Notes under the pieces: model-generated | Told to the model about the DNA's origin: nothing | The model's database searches: none | Seen by the model: only the letters and a program-made list of their open reading frames with translations | In this document: one piece after another, positions 22,036 to 36,303 of the stretch | Numbering within the stretch: the first letter of the stretch is position 1 | Layout: the number at the start of each line of letters is the position of its first letter | Position numbers and translations under genes: made by a program | DNA from: a virus | Length of the DNA stretch: 56,599 nucleotides | IMG/VR virus record: IMGVR_UViG_3300042545_001134 | Location: 1-56,599 of that record | Direction: 5' to 3' (one strand)

Positions 22036-23559
22036 ATGAAGTTCAACGAAATTATAACAAATGTCATTTATGAAGAGATAAAGAATAAAAAACTCTTCAA
22101 CGCATTAATGGACAAGTGGAAGATGGAAAAACCTAACCTATCTCCAGATGAGGCGGAAACGTTAATCACCTCTTTCCAACGAATCCAAAATGGTTTAAAA
22201 CCAGAAAAACCACAAGTCTTTTCATTCCTAAGCAGGTTCGATGGAGAACAAGGTTTTGAAAGATTCGACCCCAATAATCTAAAGGATATTACAAAGTATA
22301 GTTACCAACAAATATTATTTTTAGTTGGTGAATATGATGATGCTGAGGAAGAAGTTCAAGGTGATGTATTTGTCGGTAAGGACACTAAACCAACCGAAGA
22401 AAGGATTGCAGCATCTAAAGAACTATGGAGTGGAGAAGAAAACCTAATCATAAACGAGGACGGATTAAGAGTATACAGTATACCTGACCAAAAAACCTCC
22501 ATGAAATATGGTTATTATGTTCAAGTAATAAACAAGGCCATACCAAATAGTAACGGTCCTTGGTGTGTAACGTGGAGAGCCGACCAAGGAACAAACATGT
22601 GGGGTAATTATCGAAACAATAGAAGTTTTTATTTCGTTATTGACGAATCAAAAGATACCACAGATAAATACTATTTGGGGGCACTACAAAGAGATGTTAC
22701 AGTTAAATCGGATTTTAGATTAACCTCAACACAAAATAACGGGGATAATCCAATGACTTGGGAGGAAATTGTTCAAATTTACCCTAAACTTGATAACCAC
22801 AAAGATAAGATTGTTGTAAAACCTTACTCTCAAAATGAATTAGAGGAAAAAAGTATAGTGGGTCAGATTACCGAGAGAGTAGGTCATCAATATGAATTTA
22901 AAAGACTTGGTAAAGACCTTAAAAGGGCATACATCAATAACCAAGGTGTACTTAGTAGTCCAGAATCTTGGAGGTCGATGGATGATAAACTAAGAGCGCT
23001 TTATATTTTATCAACAACTGAGTATCAAGTAAAAGATAAGTTTAATAACTTTGATTTTGTTAATGAAATTAGGAAAGTTGGTAGTGAATTTAACCTTTTA
23101 AATAATCGTTTAAAACAAGTAGGTTTAAGTGGTGTTGGTGTTATATATGACCATTTAATGGCCACTGAATTCAGAGTTGCGAGAGTGTCGGCTGACAATG
23201 AAAACATCAGATTATATGAAAGTAAAATCAACGGTAAATCGGGATTATACAACGTAAGAGCAACCGATTGGGTTGAATTGGGGGGACACAGATACGAACC
23301 ATTATACGAACAAATCGATACTGATTTATTCTTTGATGATGAGGGAGAAACGTATGTTGTTGAGACATTCAGTAAATCAATGCAACCATCTAATGATTCC
23401 TTTTATTCTGTTTATTCAGTGGGTGATTCAAATCCCGAATTAAATTCACATTTCCTATCCTCAACGGCGTGGGAAAAATTAAAAAGTAATTTAAAATCTG
23501 AAGACGAAGATGTCTCTAAGAAACCCGGTGAAGAAACCGATATAAAAGAATACAAATAA
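22036..23559 (+). CDS. Large leader-bearing protein with W-C-x-T-W motif
   Basis: 507 residues. MKFNEIITNVIYEEIKNK fits the T4-like leader form. Residues about 176-182 PWCVTWRADQ followed by RSFYFVIDES resemble the EWCTTWGPQ...HLYILIKN block of the 29042-30859 protein, a motif I remember from many phage hypotheticals. The rest is mixed and acidic, with a charged C-terminal tail. No catalytic role known. Box TATTTATT at 22010-22017. Ends at a bidirectional terminator shared with the endolysin. Confidence 0.55.
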   Translation: MKFNEIITNVIYEEIKNKKLFNALMDKWKMEKPNLSPDEAETLITSFQRIQNGLKPEKPQVFSFLSRFDGEQGFERFDPNNLKDITKYSYQQILFLVGEYDDAEEEVQGDVFVGKDTKPTEERIAASKELWSGEENLIINEDGLRVYSIPDQKTSMKYGYYVQVINKAIPNSNGPWCVTWRADQGTNMWGNYRNNRSFYFVIDESKDTTDKYYLGALQRDVTVKSDFRLTSTQNNGDNPMTWEEIVQIYPKLDNHKDKIVVKPYSQNELEEKSIVGQITERVGHQYEFKRLGKDLKRAYINNQGVLSSPESWRSMDDKLRALYILSTTEYQVKDKFNNFDFVNEIRKVGSEFNLLNNRLKQVGLSGVGVIYDHLMATEFRVARVSADNENIRLYESKINGKSGLYNVRATDWVELGGHRYEPLYEQIDTDLFFDDEGETYVVETFSKSMQPSNDSFYSVYSVGDSNPELNSHFLSSTAWEKLKSNLKSEDEDVSKKPGEETDIKEYK

Positions 23560-23560
23560 A

Positions 23561-23588
23561 AAAGGGGGTTTAAAACCCCCTTTTTTTA
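23561..23588 (+). terminator. Bidirectional terminator
   Basis: AAAAAAGGGGGTT-TAAA-ACCCCC then TTTTTTT; the reverse strand also ends in T's, so it serves the gene on the plus strand and the endolysin gene on the minus strand. Confidence 0.85.
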
Positions 23589-29042: not shown

Positions 29043-30859
29043 TATAATAAATTCTTGATGTTTTTTACATTCTCGAACAATTTATAATTGGTCGCATATG
29101 TTGCGAGATTTTCAATTTTAACCGGTCCACTTTCACGAGTACCTTTCTTTTTATCACCCAGCACGATGACGATAGACCCCTTCTCACAATCAATTTTCAT
29201 TGAGGGTAAAAAAATATCAAACTCCTCGTTTTCAATTCTATCGGAACCTTTGAATACTTTCTGTACAACATCATTTAAAATTTTACGATATTCAGCACAC
29301 GTCTTCACACCTTCAAAGTCATTGAATACTTTTTCAAAATAATCCTCAATGGGTTTTTGTAAATCTTCATATGTCACCTCATCGGTTTGGTGGTCCCAAA
29401 TACCCTCATAATCGTTATCAATATTGTAGTAACTTGCATAACCATCCAAAACATCAATCATATAATTTTCTTTTCCGTCGATGATTGTGTAATCTTTTTT
29501 TACTAGATATAGTAAAAAATAAGGTATTTTAACTTTTACAAGATTCTCTTTGGTGTAACTATCAAAGTCCATGTATTTTACAATATCATCAACTTGAGCC
29601 TGTGCTGCGTTCTCAAGGTGTATAGTATTTTTATTTACATAATCACTGGAATACCATTCCCAAATATCATCATCTTGAGTGAAATTATCATAGTGGTCCA
29701 TTTTAAATTGTTCGTAATCCGAATACCCGTATAATGTCTTTAATTCTTCACCATTTCTTTTATAATATTCCTCCAAATAGTTAGCCAACACATCTTTTAT
29801 GTAATCACTATCTTCATTGTACATTCTATCCCACAAGACTTCACTCCCATTATTAGCCTCACCCTCATAATAACTCAATGTATCTCGAGTGGTATTTAAA
29901 CTTCCGCCATATGAGGTTATAAATTCAACATTTAACCACTCACCTTCAATTTCCAACGATGCCAAATCATCATCCGTTATAATCTTTTCTAATGCATCAA
30001 TATCTTTATTGATTAATGCGGCGATTATTGGGTTGTTTTTTGCTGATGTGGAAACCAATTTATTTACCAATATCGTAGTATCGTCATCATCAAGGGCATT
30101 TAACCTTTCGATTTGAGTTTTTAGTGTACTCTCATCTACATCATCACCAATAAGTGACGGGAAAAAGAAGTGTTTCACCTCCTCATTCTTATTTAAAAAT
30201 TCTTGTATGTTGATTCTCGCATCTTCTTTATCCATATATTGTTTGGATTGAAAGTGGAGTTGATATTTTTCATTAATATCTGAGTTCTTTATTAAAATAT
30301 AAAGATGCCCCTGTGAGTGATATCTTGAATATAAACTACCTCTATCCTGATGTTTTGGGTTTAAAGATTGTGGACCCCAAGTTGTACACCATTCAGTGTT
30401 TACTCCTAAGTAACAAGATGCCTTCTCCGTGAATGGTACAAAAATCGTCCATAACTCACTTTGAAAGACCTTCCTATACTCTTTCTCATCTAATGCGGAG
30501 ATAATCGAACCAAGGTCTCTTGTGTCCTTCGCATAGTATCCTTTTACTACGTCATATAAATCATTTAATGATTTAATCTTATTTGAATCGAGTGAGACAC
30601 TATGTTTGTAAACATAATCCAAATATTCCTTTGCTCTTGGTAAATCCTCAAGTTTTAATGTTTTCTTTCTATATAAGTTAATCAACAATTTGGCAAACTT
30701 ACCAATTCGTTGAATACCATTTTCGTTTGATTTACTTTGAGGGTCAGACATAACAACTTGATTGAACTCTTCTCTTGGAATGTCCTTATAGTATGAGTTA
30801 TAAATCTCATCGGGAGTCGCCTCCAATAGTAATGATTCAAATAAATCCTCTAATCTCAT
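29042..30859 (-). CDS. Large leader-bearing protein with EWCTTW motif
   Basis: 605 residues. MRLEDLFESLLLEATPDE again looks like a T4-type capsid-targeting leader with an LLE|A cut. Residues about 147-215 (SCYLGVNTEWCTTWGPQ, GHLYILIKNSDINEKYQLHFQ) form a domain seen in many phage proteins. The remainder is acidic, with long Asp/Tyr-rich helices. It shares one base with the genes on both sides, forming one operon of three leader proteins. Confidence 0.55.
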   Translation of the reverse strand: MRLEDLFESLLLEATPDEIYNSYYKDIPREEFNQVVMSDPQSKSNENGIQRIGKFAKLLINLYRKKTLKLEDLPRAKEYLDYVYKHSVSLDSNKIKSLNDLYDVVKGYYAKDTRDLGSIISALDEKEYRKVFQSELWTIFVPFTEKASCYLGVNTEWCTTWGPQSLNPKHQDRGSLYSRYHSQGHLYILIKNSDINEKYQLHFQSKQYMDKEDARINIQEFLNKNEEVKHFFFPSLIGDDVDESTLKTQIERLNALDDDDTTILVNKLVSTSAKNNPIIAALINKDIDALEKIITDDDLASLEIEGEWLNVEFITSYGGSLNTTRDTLSYYEGEANNGSEVLWDRMYNEDSDYIKDVLANYLEEYYKRNGEELKTLYGYSDYEQFKMDHYDNFTQDDDIWEWYSSDYVNKNTIHLENAAQAQVDDIVKYMDFDSYTKENLVKVKIPYFLLYLVKKDYTIIDGKENYMIDVLDGYASYYNIDNDYEGIWDHQTDEVTYEDLQKPIEDYFEKVFNDFEGVKTCAEYRKILNDVVQKVFKGSDRIENEEFDIFLPSMKIDCEKGSIVIVLGDKKKGTRESGPVKIENLATYATNYKLFENVKNIKNLL

Positions 30860-32178
30860 TATTGTGTTTTAATTGTTTTACTAAACGGTGGTATTGGTGT
30901 TAATTCAAATCTTCTATTTGGTGCGGTATCTTCCACCTTGGTTGGGGCTTGTGCTGTCCACCCTGGCCCAAACTTAGTTGTTTCACCCGCACCATAGAAA
31001 CCAAAACTAAGTCCTGTTCCCGTTAATTTTTCATTTATAATATCTGCAATTCGTTTTGCTCTTGCCTCAGATAAACATTTATTATATTCACCTCTTGTTG
31101 CCACTGATTTACACGGAGCATATTTCCCCGTTATTTTTTGTTCTGAATTGGCATCAATACTTGCGTAACCTACAATTTTAGGTGACGACTTCATAATGTG
31201 GTCCGTAAGTGGTTTACCGTGTTGATTAGCATTTGTTTTCATTTTATTCACAAACCCATCAATTTGACCCATTGATTTTCCTTCATCAATAAAGTTAGTC
31301 TCATCAAATTTAAAAACGTCAACTAATGAGAATTCAACTTTAATTACGGTCTCACTTGGAGTTTTACCCGTTGTTGTTGCGGTTCTTGGTACATCTCCCC
31401 CAATTTTCATATTGGGGTTACTATTGAAAACAAATTTCTGTAATTCTAAAAATAAACCTCCCGATTGTAGATACGCATAAACATCATTGTTCACTTTCAT
31501 TGGTAACCTATTATACTTAAAATATGTACCTAATGGGTATTCATCACCCGCGGCAACTGACTCTTTAGATGTGGCCCTATCAGGTTTACCCGTAAAACCC
31601 AATATAAAACGTCCACCATTCTGACGGTCAGTTTTAATGGTAACATCAACCATACCCTTTTCTATTTCCAACAAGTATCTTGGGTTTTTTTCAAAAAACA
31701 TCGCCACTTTAGGGTCCTCTTTTAATATGTCAGCGGCGAACGCCGTTGAGACTGCCCCAACTTTGAACATTCCGTCAAAATCTCCAACATAATAGTATTC
31801 TTTTGTTTCCTCAAGAGGTACCTCACCCTCAACCACTTTACCATTTTCAGTACCTTTAATAACAACAGAGTATGAGTCATTTGGACCTTGTTCCACTCGA
31901 ATTGTAAGTAAGTTTAATAGTTCAGTCTGTTTGTTTGGAAGAATTTCCATATTCATTCTCTCCTCGATATATCTTATCACATCGGCATCAGAAATAAAAT
32001 CAGGTTGTTCGTTAATAACTTTACTAACCAATTTAACTAAATCCGATTCGGTTAATTTAACCATTTTTTGTTTGGTCGTTGGTGGGGACACCGTTCTATC
32101 TGAGGATGTTGGTTGCTCAAGTATATTTTGAACCATATTCTTTAAATCATTCTCAGTAAGTTTTATAATTTTCGCCAT
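30859..32178 (-). CDS. OmpA-like protein with two leader copies
   Basis: 439 residues. Two leaders stand in tandem: AKIIKLTENDLKNMVQNILEQ (2-22) and, after a short Pro/Ser linker, MVKLTESDLVKLVSKVINEQ (39-58). The C-terminal part is OmpA-like: KCLSEARAKRIADIINEKL, then GAGETTKFGPGW and TAPNRRFEL, the peptidoglycan-binding motif with its Asn-Arg-Arg end. The middle is beta-rich. It heads the three-gene operon. TATTTATA box at 32195-32202. A wall-binding virion protein is the best inference. Confidence 0.65.
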   Translation of the reverse strand: MAKIIKLTENDLKNMVQNILEQPTSSDRTVSPPTTKQKMVKLTESDLVKLVSKVINEQPDFISDADVIRYIEERMNMEILPNKQTELLNLLTIRVEQGPNDSYSVVIKGTENGKVVEGEVPLEETKEYYYVGDFDGMFKVGAVSTAFAADILKEDPKVAMFFEKNPRYLLEIEKGMVDVTIKTDRQNGGRFILGFTGKPDRATSKESVAAGDEYPLGTYFKYNRLPMKVNNDVYAYLQSGGLFLELQKFVFNSNPNMKIGGDVPRTATTTGKTPSETVIKVEFSLVDVFKFDETNFIDEGKSMGQIDGFVNKMKTNANQHGKPLTDHIMKSSPKIVGYASIDANSEQKITGKYAPCKSVATRGEYNKCLSEARAKRIADIINEKLTGTGLSFGFYGAGETTKFGPGWTAQAPTKVEDTAPNRRFELTPIPPFSKTIKTQ

Positions 32179-32254
32179 AATATTAAATGTTACCTATAAA
32201 TATACCAAAATCCGTCTTTATGTTGTAGGAATAACCTTGGGTTGTGTCTTTTAA

Positions 32255-32338
32255 ATTTTACCCAGTATTTATACTAGCACTAGATTCTAGCAATCTAGAA
32301 ATAACTAGAAAAGCATCTAGTATTATACTGGGTAAAAT
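32255..32338. repeat. 84-base palindromic element packed with CTAG
   Basis: ATTTTACCCAGTAT (32255-32268) and ATACTGGGTAAAAT (32325-32338) are perfect 14-base inverted repeats. Inside, ATACTAG pairs with CTAGTAT, and CTAGATT-CTAGC-AATCTAG forms another perfect hairpin. Six CTAG tetramers occur in about 50 bases. It lies in the gap between two diverging leader-peptide genes and touches the ATG at 32342. It could be an operator, a recombination or packaging site, or a mobile-element remnant. Confidence 0.75.
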
Positions 32339-32341
32339 CAT

Positions 32342-32611
32342 ATGAAAGTAATTGTTTCTGAAAAAACGTTAAGTAAGGTAATTGGTAAGTTAGTTACCGA
32401 AAACTATGAATCTGAGAAATTATACCACAGAGAGTCGTTGGTGAAGAAATTATTGGTTAAAAACCAAAAAGGTTTCTTTGTTGCTCCTAAAGAGATTAGG
32501 TCATTAATCGAAAGATTACCGTATATTGAATGTACTGATTCCCAAGGTAACCCCCAAACTTGTACTAAAATACCCGAAGTACTCTACGTTTATTTAACCG
32601 GAAGATATTAA
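32342..32611 (+). CDS. Short leader-peptide protein
   Basis: 89 residues. MKVIVSEKTLSKVIGKLVTE is the shared leader. The remaining 65 residues (SLVKKLLVKNQKGFFVAPKEIRSLIERLPYIECTD, ending VYLTGRY) look like one small alpha/beta domain, not recognised. The ATG follows the CTAG palindrome by three bases, so this large hairpin would sit in or directly before the mRNA leader. Confidence 0.6.
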   Translation: MKVIVSEKTLSKVIGKLVTENYESEKLYHRESLVKKLLVKNQKGFFVAPKEIRSLIERLPYIECTDSQGNPQTCTKIPEVLYVYLTGRY

Positions 32612-32616
32612 TAAAA

Positions 32617-32645
32617 AAACCCTCATAAGAGGGTTTAATTTTTTA
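32617..32645 (+). terminator. Terminator
   Basis: AAACCCTC-ATAA-GAGGGTTT followed by AATTTTTT; it also fits as a bidirectional stop for the converging gene at 32666. Confidence 0.7.
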
Positions 32646-32665
32646 TAAGGTATTCAAATTGGTTA

Positions 32666-32884
32666 TTAAAAGAATCTTTTAAAACTTGCTTTGATTTTTT
32701 CAACTGATTCGTTCACTAAATCATCAGTCTCATTTTCAATACCGTCTTCAGAATCGCATTCCTCACACACTTCCTCTTCGTTTTGTTCCATTTCAACTGA
32801 TTCGTCAGTTTCTTGTGTAACGAATGAATGACGACGTTCCATAATCATTTTCAATTGACTTTCTGTGATTTTAATTTTTTTCAT
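32666..32884 (-). CDS. Short leader-peptide protein, acidic
   Basis: 72 residues. MKKIKITESQLKMIMERR is the cleanest leader copy. The rest is highly acidic (EQNEEEVCEECDSEDGIENETDD) with a CEEC pair and a basic amphipathic tail (EKIKASFKRFF). TATTTATA box at 32899-32906. Little room for a folded domain, so the leader is the main recognisable part. Confidence 0.6.
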   Translation of the reverse strand: MKKIKITESQLKMIMERRHSFVTQETDESVEMEQNEEEVCEECDSEDGIENETDDLVNESVEKIKASFKRFF

Positions 32885-32929
32885 TTTTTCGGTTTCTATA
32901 TAAATATCAAGTTATTGTAAAAGATTAAA

Positions 32930-33442
32930 TTACTTAAAGTAACCATCGATTCCAAATTTACGTACAAGTCTATTTCTTCTTTTACATGCTGGATTCTGTC
33001 TCGTACCTCCACGGAAGATTAATTTACCCAATTTTACAATAATAATAATCGCAATTAAACCGGCAACAACTATAACCGCAACCGCAGGTACTGCCACTCC
33101 GGCAATTAAAATTGTCGCACCAACTTGTTCTTGAACAACCGGTTGTTGTGTTATTGGTTGTTCAGGTTGTTTTTTAATTGATTTAACCTGTTTTAAGACC
33201 ATAATAAGGTCATTAACATCCATTGTATCCAATTTAGATTTAATGTTGTTTACAACGTCCGCATACTCCGCTGGTGGTTCCTCAATTGGACACTCAGGTG
33301 ATACTTCCATTTTCTCTTCGGGTGTTAATACGATTCCTGCCTGAGCCAACGCATTGTCAAATTGTTGTTCTTCTGTTGATTCGGTATAAAGTCCTCTGAT
33401 ACGGTTTCTTTCTTCTTCTGTTAATGTAAATTTTTGTCCCAT
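32930..33442 (-). CDS. Leader-peptide protein with one membrane span
   Basis: 170 residues from the inner ATG 33442; the longer frame reads through the promoter box. KFTLTEEERNRIRGLYTES is a variant leader. A Pro/Gln-rich middle (QPEQPITQQPVVQEQ) precedes a long hydrophobic span (about 117-143) and a basic C-terminus (KRRNRLVRKFGIDGYFK). The same order (leader, helical part, PxQ linker, span) occurs in 34617-35246, so they are probably related in role. TATTTATA at 33455-33462. Confidence 0.6.
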   Translation of the reverse strand: MGQKFTLTEEERNRIRGLYTESTEEQQFDNALAQAGIVLTPEEKMEVSPECPIEEPPAEYADVVNNIKSKLDTMDVNDLIMVLKQVKSIKKQPEQPITQQPVVQEQVGATILIAGVAVPAVAVIVVAGLIAIIIIVKLGKLIFRGGTRQNPACKRRNRLVRKFGIDGYFK

Positions 33443-33553
33443 ATTAATGTTTATTATAAATATCATAAAAATGGGGATAGAAGTAGCGAATTCCTATCCC
33501 CGTGTCCGTGACTAGTCCCGGTCCTAAAGTGAGGTTTTCAAACCTCAACTATC

Positions 33554-34498
33554 TTAATTTGTCGGTTGCTGTACAAGACCTGGTGTCACTGTTTCAGGAT
33601 TTGATACGGTTGGTTTCAACGGTTCCATTGGTTTTAGTTCCTCAGTATCTCTTGATAAAAATTTACGTCCATTAGTGTTCCAAGCTTTTTGAGTTCTTGG
33701 ACCAAAAATACCGTATCCCTTACCATTTTGACCTTTATTAATAATACCACCATTATATCCCACGGCCCAACCTTTAGCATTTACGTCTAACCAATCTTGG
33801 AATAATTTAATTCCATTGGCATCTTTTAATTCTTTTGGTGTTGGTATCAATACTTTTTTAGGTGCAACTTTAAATTCTGGGTCTTTACATGTGTAATTTG
33901 CCATCGTTTTATTTGCCAACATTTTTCTACCGTTAGCAAAATACGTAACACCATTTATTAAGTATGACATTGTACCATCACTATATTTTTGTTGTTTTGC
34001 ACCTTTAAATCCCGTTACACATGGATACTTTAACCAAGGGTCAGTCGCGGGTGCGGCAGGTGCTGCTACAGGTGTCGCTAATAATTTGAAACTATTGGTT
34101 TTAAAATACTTAACAGATGGTTTGTATTTGTCGGCATTTGTTTCATAGGTATTATTTACCCCAATACTTTTCAAGTGTTTAGAAACCATTTCCACGGTGT
34201 ATAAATTATCCACGCCCATATCACTATTAATCCATCCCGCAACATCTAACTCTGAATATAGTTTTTTAAGTTCGGCATTTACTAATGAAAATTGTGCAGC
34301 GTCTTTAATCTTCAAAACTCCATTTCTAAATTTTGTGGGGTCAGTACCGGGACCACTAACTGATGCGTGTATCTCTTTCGCGATACCAATATTTATGTCC
34401 ACGGCTTGTTCATTTAATGGATTACCATATCCATGTTTCTTATGCATATTAAGGATTTCTTCCTTTTCTGACTCTGTTAGTAAAAAATTTTTATACAT
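33554..34498 (-). CDS. Leader-peptide protein with peptidoglycan-binding-like end
   Basis: 314 residues. NFLLTESEKEEILNMHKKHG then NPLNEQ is a longer leader with an LNE|Q site. An Ala/Pro linker lies about 165-175. Near the C-terminus LFQDWLDVN...GYGIFGPRTQKAWNTNGRKF (about 240-290) matches the peptidoglycan-binding repeat (FQxWL...GxFGPxTxxAW). A wall-directed virion protein is a fair guess. TATTTATA at 34513-34520. Confidence 0.6.
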   Translation of the reverse strand: MYKNFLLTESEKEEILNMHKKHGYGNPLNEQAVDINIGIAKEIHASVSGPGTDPTKFRNGVLKIKDAAQFSLVNAELKKLYSELDVAGWINSDMGVDNLYTVEMVSKHLKSIGVNNTYETNADKYKPSVKYFKTNSFKLLATPVAAPAAPATDPWLKYPCVTGFKGAKQQKYSDGTMSYLINGVTYFANGRKMLANKTMANYTCKDPEFKVAPKKVLIPTPKELKDANGIKLFQDWLDVNAKGWAVGYNGGIINKGQNGKGYGIFGPRTQKAWNTNGRKFLSRDTEELKPMEPLKPTVSNPETVTPGLVQQPTN

Positions 34499-34616
34499 TG
34501 TTTTAGTTTTTTTATAAATATTTAATTTTATGGGGTTATCATCCGTTTAACCGAATAAAATATTATTAAAGAAAAGAAAATAGACAAATAAACCGTCTGT
34601 GATATCAATCTCTTCA

Positions 34617-35246
34617 TTACCCGCAATTCCATAATATTGGGTCAGTTTCAAATAGGTTTTTAAAATCCAAGAATATAAGTTCCGCTAGTTTCACCAAGAA
34701 ACTCTTTTGGATATCTAAACCACAACTAACACTTATACTTCCAAGACCTTCGTAAATGTGACACCTTAAAAGACGTAAAATTAACCACGCACCAATTGCG
34801 ATGAATACACCTACAGGTAATGCCAATAAAAATACTTTAACTGATTCAAATGCCGCCATTGCTCCCGCCTGTTCATTCATTTGTGCCGGTTGTTCTTGTG
34901 GTGTTGGTTGTTGTTTATCTTGTCTTTTTTGTCTTCTCATCGCCTTTAGTTCCTGAATCATCAGTTTTAACTCATCTTTCGATGCGGTTGGGAGAACGGG
35001 ATTAAGAATTGATGCAACTTTCTTTTTTGCATTTGTAATTTCGGGAGTCTCGGCGGTTGAACTTGAAACATCCTCTTTAGATACCCCAAGTTGACTTATC
35101 TCGGATGCCAATGTTTTAACAAATTGTAACCCCTGAGCGGATTCGGGACTAAAACAATTTGATTCATCCTCGTTGATTTTACCTTTACAGCAACCCATGA
35201 TAGATTTAATTCTACCTATTTCTTCGTTTAATGTTTGTTTTTTCAT
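34617..35246 (-). CDS. Leader-peptide protein with membrane span
   Basis: 209 residues from inner ATG 35246. MKKQTLNEEIGRIKSIMG...KINEDE is the second leader subtype (LNEEhxRxKxIMG, then I-N-E). A helical middle ends with KAMRRQKRQDKQQPTPQEQP and a hydrophobic span follows (about 144-168), then a Cys-containing end. The longer frame would start inside the previous gene. Variant box TATAAATG (plus 35254-35261). Related in design to 32930-33442. Confidence 0.6.
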   Translation of the reverse strand: MKKQTLNEEIGRIKSIMGCCKGKINEDESNCFSPESAQGLQFVKTLASEISQLGVSKEDVSSSTAETPEITNAKKKVASILNPVLPTASKDELKLMIQELKAMRRQKRQDKQQPTPQEQPAQMNEQAGAMAAFESVKVFLLALPVGVFIAIGAWLILRLLRCHIYEGLGSISVSCGLDIQKSFLVKLAELIFLDFKNLFETDPILWNCG

Positions 35247-35250
35247 TATT

Positions 35251-36303
35251 TTATATAAATGGTTGAATAAATTTAGCATAATTAGTTCCACCATCAGGTC
35301 TACTTTCTTTGATGCCGAAATAATATAACATTTCGGGGTCATTAATACGAACTTCTTTTTGTGGAACTGTGTTCATGTTAGTAATAAATTTCTTGTCATA
35401 GGCAAAACGAACCACCCTTTCAATTTTATCGTCATCACCCCAATAAAATACCCACCTAAGGATAGGTGCGGTCCATGGGTCAGCAACCACATTTGTGTTC
35501 CATTTAATCTCATATGCGGTCATGTGTTTGTTGTCCCACTTATTTCTAAGTAACTTTTCACGTTGTTTAACAAACATATCGTCTACCGCCACCATACCAA
35601 GAGAATTTTTACCGTTAGCATAATACGACCCAGTTAAAATCATATTTGCGTTAATGTCTGTATATGTTTCAATAGTATCGGTACTCGTTTTACCCGTTGT
35701 AGTTACGGTTGTTATGTCTTTCTTGTATTTGAATACAAGTGTAACGTTCATAAACTGACCTGGGTTGGGATATTTGGTTGTATCTCTTACTTCATCCTTA
35801 ACACCACCTGTATTCAATACGATGGTTTTAAACGCAACTTTCGCAACATCAGAATCGGAGATTTTATTTTTTTTAAGGAAGTTGAATAGTGCGGGGCGAA
35901 ACGACTGTGCTCTTAACAACGCCAATTGAACATTCTTTTTATACAGGGGGTCCTCAAGGTTTTGACCTTTTGGTGCAACTGCGTAATTATTTTCCTTATC
36001 GTATGGTGTTACCTTACCTAACCATGTGTTACTTGCACCGGCTGTAAAGGTTCCATTAGTAAAAGTCATTTCACCACTTTTTAACATAGCGGGACCATTC
36101 GGTGTTGCATTAATCTTTTCCAATAATGTTTTGGTGAAGTCAGCAAGAAATGGAGTTGGGTCCGACGAGTTAACGGGATACGCCGCCTTAAAGTTAAAAC
36201 TAACTTTAACTTCAATAGGGGTTGTTACCTCATTTAATAATGATGTCCCATTCTTACCGATTAACGATTTAAGTTGGGACTCCGTGATGATGATTTTTCT
36301 CAT
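35251..36303 (-). CDS. Leader-peptide protein, OmpA-like relative
   Basis: 350 residues. RKIIITESQLKSLIGKNGTS then LLNEV is a full leader with an LNE|V site. The body is beta-rich; LALLRAQSFRPALFNFLKK...IVLNTGGVKDEVRDTTKYPNPGQF (about 135-195) is reminiscent of the OmpA-family core (RA...L, N-x-G-x-x-D-x-x-R). The C-terminal YYFGIKESRPDGGTNY is unrecognised. TATTTATT box at 36317-36324. Confidence 0.55.
   Translation of the reverse strand: MRKIIITESQLKSLIGKNGTSLLNEVTTPIEVKVSFNFKAAYPVNSSDPTPFLADFTKTLLEKINATPNGPAMLKSGEMTFTNGTFTAGASNTWLGKVTPYDKENNYAVAPKGQNLEDPLYKKNVQLALLRAQSFRPALFNFLKKNKISDSDVAKVAFKTIVLNTGGVKDEVRDTTKYPNPGQFMNVTLVFKYKKDITTVTTTGKTSTDTIETYTDINANMILTGSYYANGKNSLGMVAVDDMFVKQREKLLRNKWDNKHMTAYEIKWNTNVVADPWTAPILRWVFYWGDDDKIERVVRFAYDKKFITNMNTVPQKEVRINDPEMLYYFGIKESRPDGGTNYAKFIQPFI

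Follow-up and report, generated by a model that had tools for sequence, protein, structure and literature searches.

A CTAG-rich palindrome in a T4-like jumbo phage resembles an array element of the tail sheath/tube gap

The 84-bp palindrome at positions 32255-32338 of the window, the 56,599-nucleotide stretch analysed here as the first 56.6 kb of the 310,691-bp record of a T4-like phage, is by sequence comparison a displaced duplicate beside late leader genes rather than a conserved trait of that spot, and its regular counterpart occupies the intergenic gap that separates tail sheath from tail tube. We tentatively favour, at somewhat less than even confidence, an explanation in which the element would be a DNA array read by a putative phage protein that modulates adjacent late promoters. 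On this view, the palindrome would be an additional copy, displaced and of unusual symmetry, of a cis-acting DNA element normally found between the sheath and tube genes, the CYRG boxes of which (CTAG, CCAG or CTGG) would be bound by a phage-encoded, dyad-recognising protein; once bound, the array would act on transcription from neighbouring late promoters, which for the regular copy means that of the tail tube gene and for the window copy those of the two leader genes, encoding 89 and 439 aa. Such a protein-site reading is supported by the existence of an element family, its single conserved position, the spacing of its boxes and its place upstream of the late-promoter-like motif TATTTATA. 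Dozens of related jumbo phages from the environment share a non-coding array that is fixed, single-copy and fast-remodelled, which would amount to an undescribed cis-acting system, and the displaced second copy in this phage allows the element to be compared in two settings within one genome.

The window palindrome consists of perfect 14-bp outer arms separated by 56 nt. On the plus strand, the left arm ATTTTACCCAGTAT (32255-32268) holds the 5' terminal box of the family, CCCAGTAT, which is common to the sheath/tube copies, and the right arm ATACTGGGTAAAAT (32325-32338), its perfect complement, holds the 3' terminal box ATACTGGG. Within these, an inner arm ATACTAG (32271-32277, plus strand) pairs with CTAGTAT (32317-32323, plus strand), and a central nested hairpin CTAGATT-CTAGC-AATCTAG (32280-32298, plus strand; arms at 32280-32286 and 32292-32298) is present in the DNA-parameter fold, RNA folds giving alternative pairings. 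The coordinates thus confirm the nested inverted repeat of the original prediction, as well as its six CTAG in about 50 bases: these start at 32274, 32280, 32287, 32295, 32305 and 32317 and form a 47-bp array (32274-32320). The tetramer, which the original prediction called usually rare, is scarce elsewhere, with 17 occurrences in the whole window against about 93 in shuffles, a strong avoidance in which the array accounts for six of the 17, and with only 151 in the whole 310-kb record. The maximum per 50 bp, six in the window, was two in 90 of 100 window shuffles, three in nine and four in one. Inverted repeats of 14 bp with 40-70 nt between the arms occur once in the window against 0.06 expected, and the copy folds with z-scores of about -7 on either strand. 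The claim that the palindrome stands far above background holds for nesting and CTAG density but not for length alone, since another perfect 14-bp repeat, with a 1-nt loop, lies at 23558-23586; nesting and CTAG density, not arm length, are what distinguish it. It is also the most symmetrical of the tabulated copies, with all 12 compared terminal positions paired.

The palindrome lies between diverging genes and ends 3 nt before the ATG of one of them, in line with the original prediction: a 439-aa ORF on the minus strand (30859-32178) starts about 77 nt away, and an 89-aa ORF follows on the plus strand (32342-32611). The same prediction took this divergent leader-gene spot for the setting of the element, which it normally is not, the conserved location being the sheath/tube gap. 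Relatives of the 89-aa gene (in L008-L014, at 47-69% identity) have no such element upstream and no third copy of this type was found in three collection scans, which is why we consider the window copy a displaced duplicate. Its nearest match is a displaced copy in contig L001, between an ORF that we take, from inspection of its sequence, to be peptidyl-prolyl-isomerase-like and a set of small ORFs including a 77-aa one resembling the 89-aa ORF; beyond the boxes, the two copies have ACTAGCACTAGA and CTAGAAAAGCAT in common. The 439-aa ORF has no Pfam or PHROG match and no relative in IMG/VR. Other matches from two of these scans were set aside as chance: a pattern built on the sequence common to the window and L001 copies hit 10 other contigs, all non-palindromic, coding-looking and devoid of terminal boxes, and a compact-palindrome scan hit five others.

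The absence of the palindrome at the 89-aa gene of relatives and the closely similar displaced copy in L001 would also suit a small mobile repeat, a MITE- or REP-like palindrome inserted at 32.2 kb. We regard this as very unlikely: large records carry one element at one fixed place, the three scans produced a single compact displaced copy besides that of the window, and there is no target-site duplication at 32255/32338. REP elements and MITEs share with this family short palindromes bearing tetranucleotide signatures, but the elements described here occur once per genome (twice in this phage) at one fixed site, and show neither a GTAG-type foot nor a target duplication. As a separate observation, the ORF series at 30859-36303 of the window and those of L008-L014 encode a common N-terminal leader (ITESQLKxxI, LTESDLxKLV), after which the bodies are unrelated and in most cases match no family; the leader is possibly a head-targeting signal.

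Looking for the same element elsewhere in the phage and its relatives, as the original prediction proposed, reveals a second copy in the record and a large family beyond it. The second copy (record positions 237377-237478) is flanked by ORFs with PHROG matches to tail sheath and tail tube, and is the sole other comparable non-coding CTAG cluster of the record. Relatives were gathered from IMG/VR by a tail-tube search and a pattern scan, giving 91 unique sheath/tube gaps in 55 non-redundant groups, and most of these hold a homologous element, with CCCAGTAT on the sheath side, ATACTGG or ATACTAG on the tube side and 1-14 CTAG, CCAG or CTGG boxes in between. Large records have it as a single copy in one fixed place, and the present phage, with two, is atypical. 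In sense order, the regular copy comprises the sheath stop; a hairpin, often with a T-run; in many cases a GTTCCACNNGGAAC hairpin; the box element itself (about 70-190 nt); an A-rich ACTACGAAAAA; a small palindrome, TTGAC-NNN-GTCAA; about 50 nt; TATTTATA; and the tube ATG. The array expands and contracts by tandem units (L052, L126, L136), and some relatives (L055, L083, L084) keep the terminal arms with no CTAG at all in the element. Three gaps (L053, L068, L138), perhaps a distinct subfamily, have two tandem TACGAAAA / TTGAC units, and by their tube gene GGTCC/GGACC arms replace CCCAG/CTGGG.

The element is missing before the tube gene of distant named tail-tube relatives (Flavobacterium phage immuto, Microcystis phage Mel-JY01 and Rhodothermus phage RM378) and of the uncultured relative LR756508, and a nucleotide search of cultured phages with the window region gave no match. 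Nothing in Rfam 15 exceeded the gathering score in the window region or at eight loci with the element or variants of it; weak microRNA and pseudoknot matches, far under their gathering scores, were dismissed. Titles and abstract openings of publications on CTAG with tail genes or palindromes, and on Bacteroidetes jumbo phages, contain no description of it. With neither an Rfam match nor a mention in those titles and abstract openings, the element is to that extent undescribed, and it resembles iteron or operator arrays. The earlier statement that no usual element fits agrees with the empty Rfam search and with the lack of a T-run at the palindrome, and nothing in the ORFs inspected contradicts its exclusion of a transposase or tRNA. 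In particular, an intrinsic terminator was rejected, the 14-bp arms being followed by CATATGAAAG on the plus strand and TTAAAAGACAC on the minus strand, neither a T-run, and no gene reading into the site. Terminators and intercistronic hairpins resemble the element in being large inverted repeats between genes, but differ from it in that the window genes diverge, the palindrome is without a T-run and pairing is not the conserved feature.

What is conserved across the family are boxes more than pairing. In the gaps, CTAG, CTGG and CCAG exceed all other tetramers in over-representation (10-13 fold), and the distances separating CTAG boxes have peaks at 6, 9 and 15, which is accounted for by a module, CTGG-AA-CTAG-NNNNN-CTAG-TATTTAT, in the alignment of subgroup A (22 groups). 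The spacers are T-rich in L052 and A-rich in L045, with CTAG retained in both, and this flip of spacer polarity around a preserved palindromic box suggests a strand-symmetric site, as in DNA binding. The terminal boxes are conserved as sequence, and changes in their partners are mostly one-sided (31 of 43 have C-G and 12 have C.A), with the pairs immediately outside the box core not conserved, which favours boxes recognised as DNA over paired RNA. Overall, the strong hairpin appears exceptional to the window copy, and box sequence better kept than pairing across the family. A ribbon-helix-helix profile search of the phage for a protein binding these boxes stayed below cut-off.

The same data bear on the rather unlikely alternative of a structured RNA, in which the transcribed hairpin would act in processing or stability between cistrons, terminate transcription in an unusual manner or form a small non-coding RNA. 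The window copy folds strongly whichever strand is taken, and across 65 elements the mean folding z-score is about -3.1 in sense and about -2.7 in antisense; L055 has a compensatory arm change (CCCGGTA/TACCGGGT), the small subgroup B has three pairs with changes on both sides, and a small downstream hairpin covaries (TTGAC-AAA-GTCAA / TTGAT-AAA-ATCAA). The L055 compensation and subgroup B covariation, together with the relatives that keep the arms and lack CTAG, leave some room for an RNA or cruciform role. Against it stand the predominance of one-sided changes, the unconserved outer pairs and the spacer flips, as well as subgroup A, which has essentially no conserved RNA structure, and the empty Rfam search. 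Furthermore, many relatives (e.g., L034) already have a hairpin with a T-run between the sheath stop and the element, and none of the window's genes reads into the palindrome.

The position of the element relative to late promoters bears on the DNA-array explanation that we favour. In 90 of 91 gaps TATTTAT, the core of the TATTTATA motif, is found 37-56 nt before the tube ATG, and within the elements it shows a sense-strand bias (45:10). In the record, 59 of 295 ORFs have it upstream in sense, in most cases at a distance of 10-37 nt, and 20 have the reverse motif. A motif similar to TATTTATA also precedes the tube gene of the cultured Flavobacterium phage immuto. These positions suggest that TATTTATA behaves as a late promoter of the phage group. 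T4-type late promoters (TATAAATA) are gp55-dependent, and the likeness lies in a TATTTATA-type late promoter that adjoins the elements, with similar motifs inside them; the box array sets the present system apart, as it is absent from the cultured relatives examined, and we know of no counterpart in T4. In the window, a TATTTATA motif (32266-32273, plus strand) in the left half of the palindrome is oriented towards the 89-aa gene, and another (32195-32202, minus strand), about 50 bp from the palindrome, belongs to the 439-aa gene. If the inner motif were a promoter, as its placement suggests, transcription would start inside the element and the full hairpin could not form. CYAG directly precedes none of 45 ordinary late promoters in this phage and none of 40 in genome G001, so the element does not belong to the standard promoter. 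Two ORFs are candidate factors for reading the TATTTATA late motif: a 269-aa sigma-70 factor (record positions 176791-176997, L260) and a weaker, sub-threshold 232-aa sigma-like ORF (266387-266572, L261). Early genes carry TAnnTTTG, which we take to be a Bacteroidota promoter motif, and the host is on this ground probably a member of the Bacteroidota; a tail-tube search of bacterial and archaeal species genomes for the host returned one weak partial match.

Arrays of short palindromes are known from MetJ met-boxes, TrpR operators with CTAG half-sites and plasmid iterons. As in these iteron and operator arrays, a short site is here repeated at preferred spacing and conserved against a drifting background, with dyad-symmetric boxes in AT-rich non-coding DNA near a promoter and copy variation by tandem units. 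The boxes differ in being only 4 bp long (CYRG) and flanked by large inverted CCCAGTAT/ATACTGGG ends, and the cognate protein is putative. An AT-rich, iteron-like array present once per genome could also be bound by an initiator or partition protein and serve as a replication origin, a centromere-like partition site or a packaging or recombination site, which we hold to be unlikely. Its single, fixed, non-coding position, the tandem-unit growth and loss, the regular box spacings and the parS-like GTTCCACNNGGAAC hairpin often found just upstream would fit, but the present phage has two copies, and GC skew in this phage and in G001 tracks gene strand with no inflection at the elements, weak evidence if replication is recombination-dependent. 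The GTTCCACNNGGAAC motif, for its part, has a variable centre and frequently precedes a T-run, which would make it terminator-like. A more specific proposal would make the CTAG array, fixed in the sheath/tube gap, a phage-specific control centre of the iteron type that serves a large uncultured clade of T4-like jumbo phages as origin, centromere or packaging start, CTAG having been purged from the remaining genome so that the site stays unique. We judge this improbable; if true, the window copy would be a second such centre in one genome.

The GTTCCACNNGGAAC hairpins of the sheath/tube gaps (e.g., L034, L035, L078), often with a T-run after them, resemble bacterial parS in their own right, and the exact TGTTNCACGTGNAACA core of bacterial parS centromeres is not kept in them, their centre varying between relatives.

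The depletion of CTAG in the window and the record could also reflect CTAG-cutting hosts, the tetramer being purged elsewhere and kept here either as a decoy or as a cluster that senses modification, in connection with restriction or methylation at CTAG. BfaI and FspBI (C^TAG) originate from Bacteroidota, and the phage encodes a 285-aa N6/N4-type DNA methyltransferase (record positions 106117-106854, L259; closest phage matches in cyanophages, about 32% identity). This nevertheless seems highly improbable, as CCAG and CTGG boxes substitute for CTAG in the element, the analysis of the methyltransferase did not point to a particular target sequence, and many bacterial genomes are poor in CTAG for unrelated causes.

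CCCAGTAT, the CYRG boxes, ATACTGG and TATTTATA provide a sequence handle for finding the putative reader protein, and the array lends itself to natural tests of how late genes are controlled, an origin is used or partition proceeds in phages not yet culturable. The other CTAG groups of the record, at 190-197 kb, fall where repetitive Thr/Pro coding sequence abounds. The Thr-Pro repeats with which these clusters coincide are similar to those of G001, where a giant repeat frame (TPTNTVTP...; L249/L250, about 108-125 kb) has a stop-free stretch of 4,017 codons that continues beyond, with a GC skew of -0.74.
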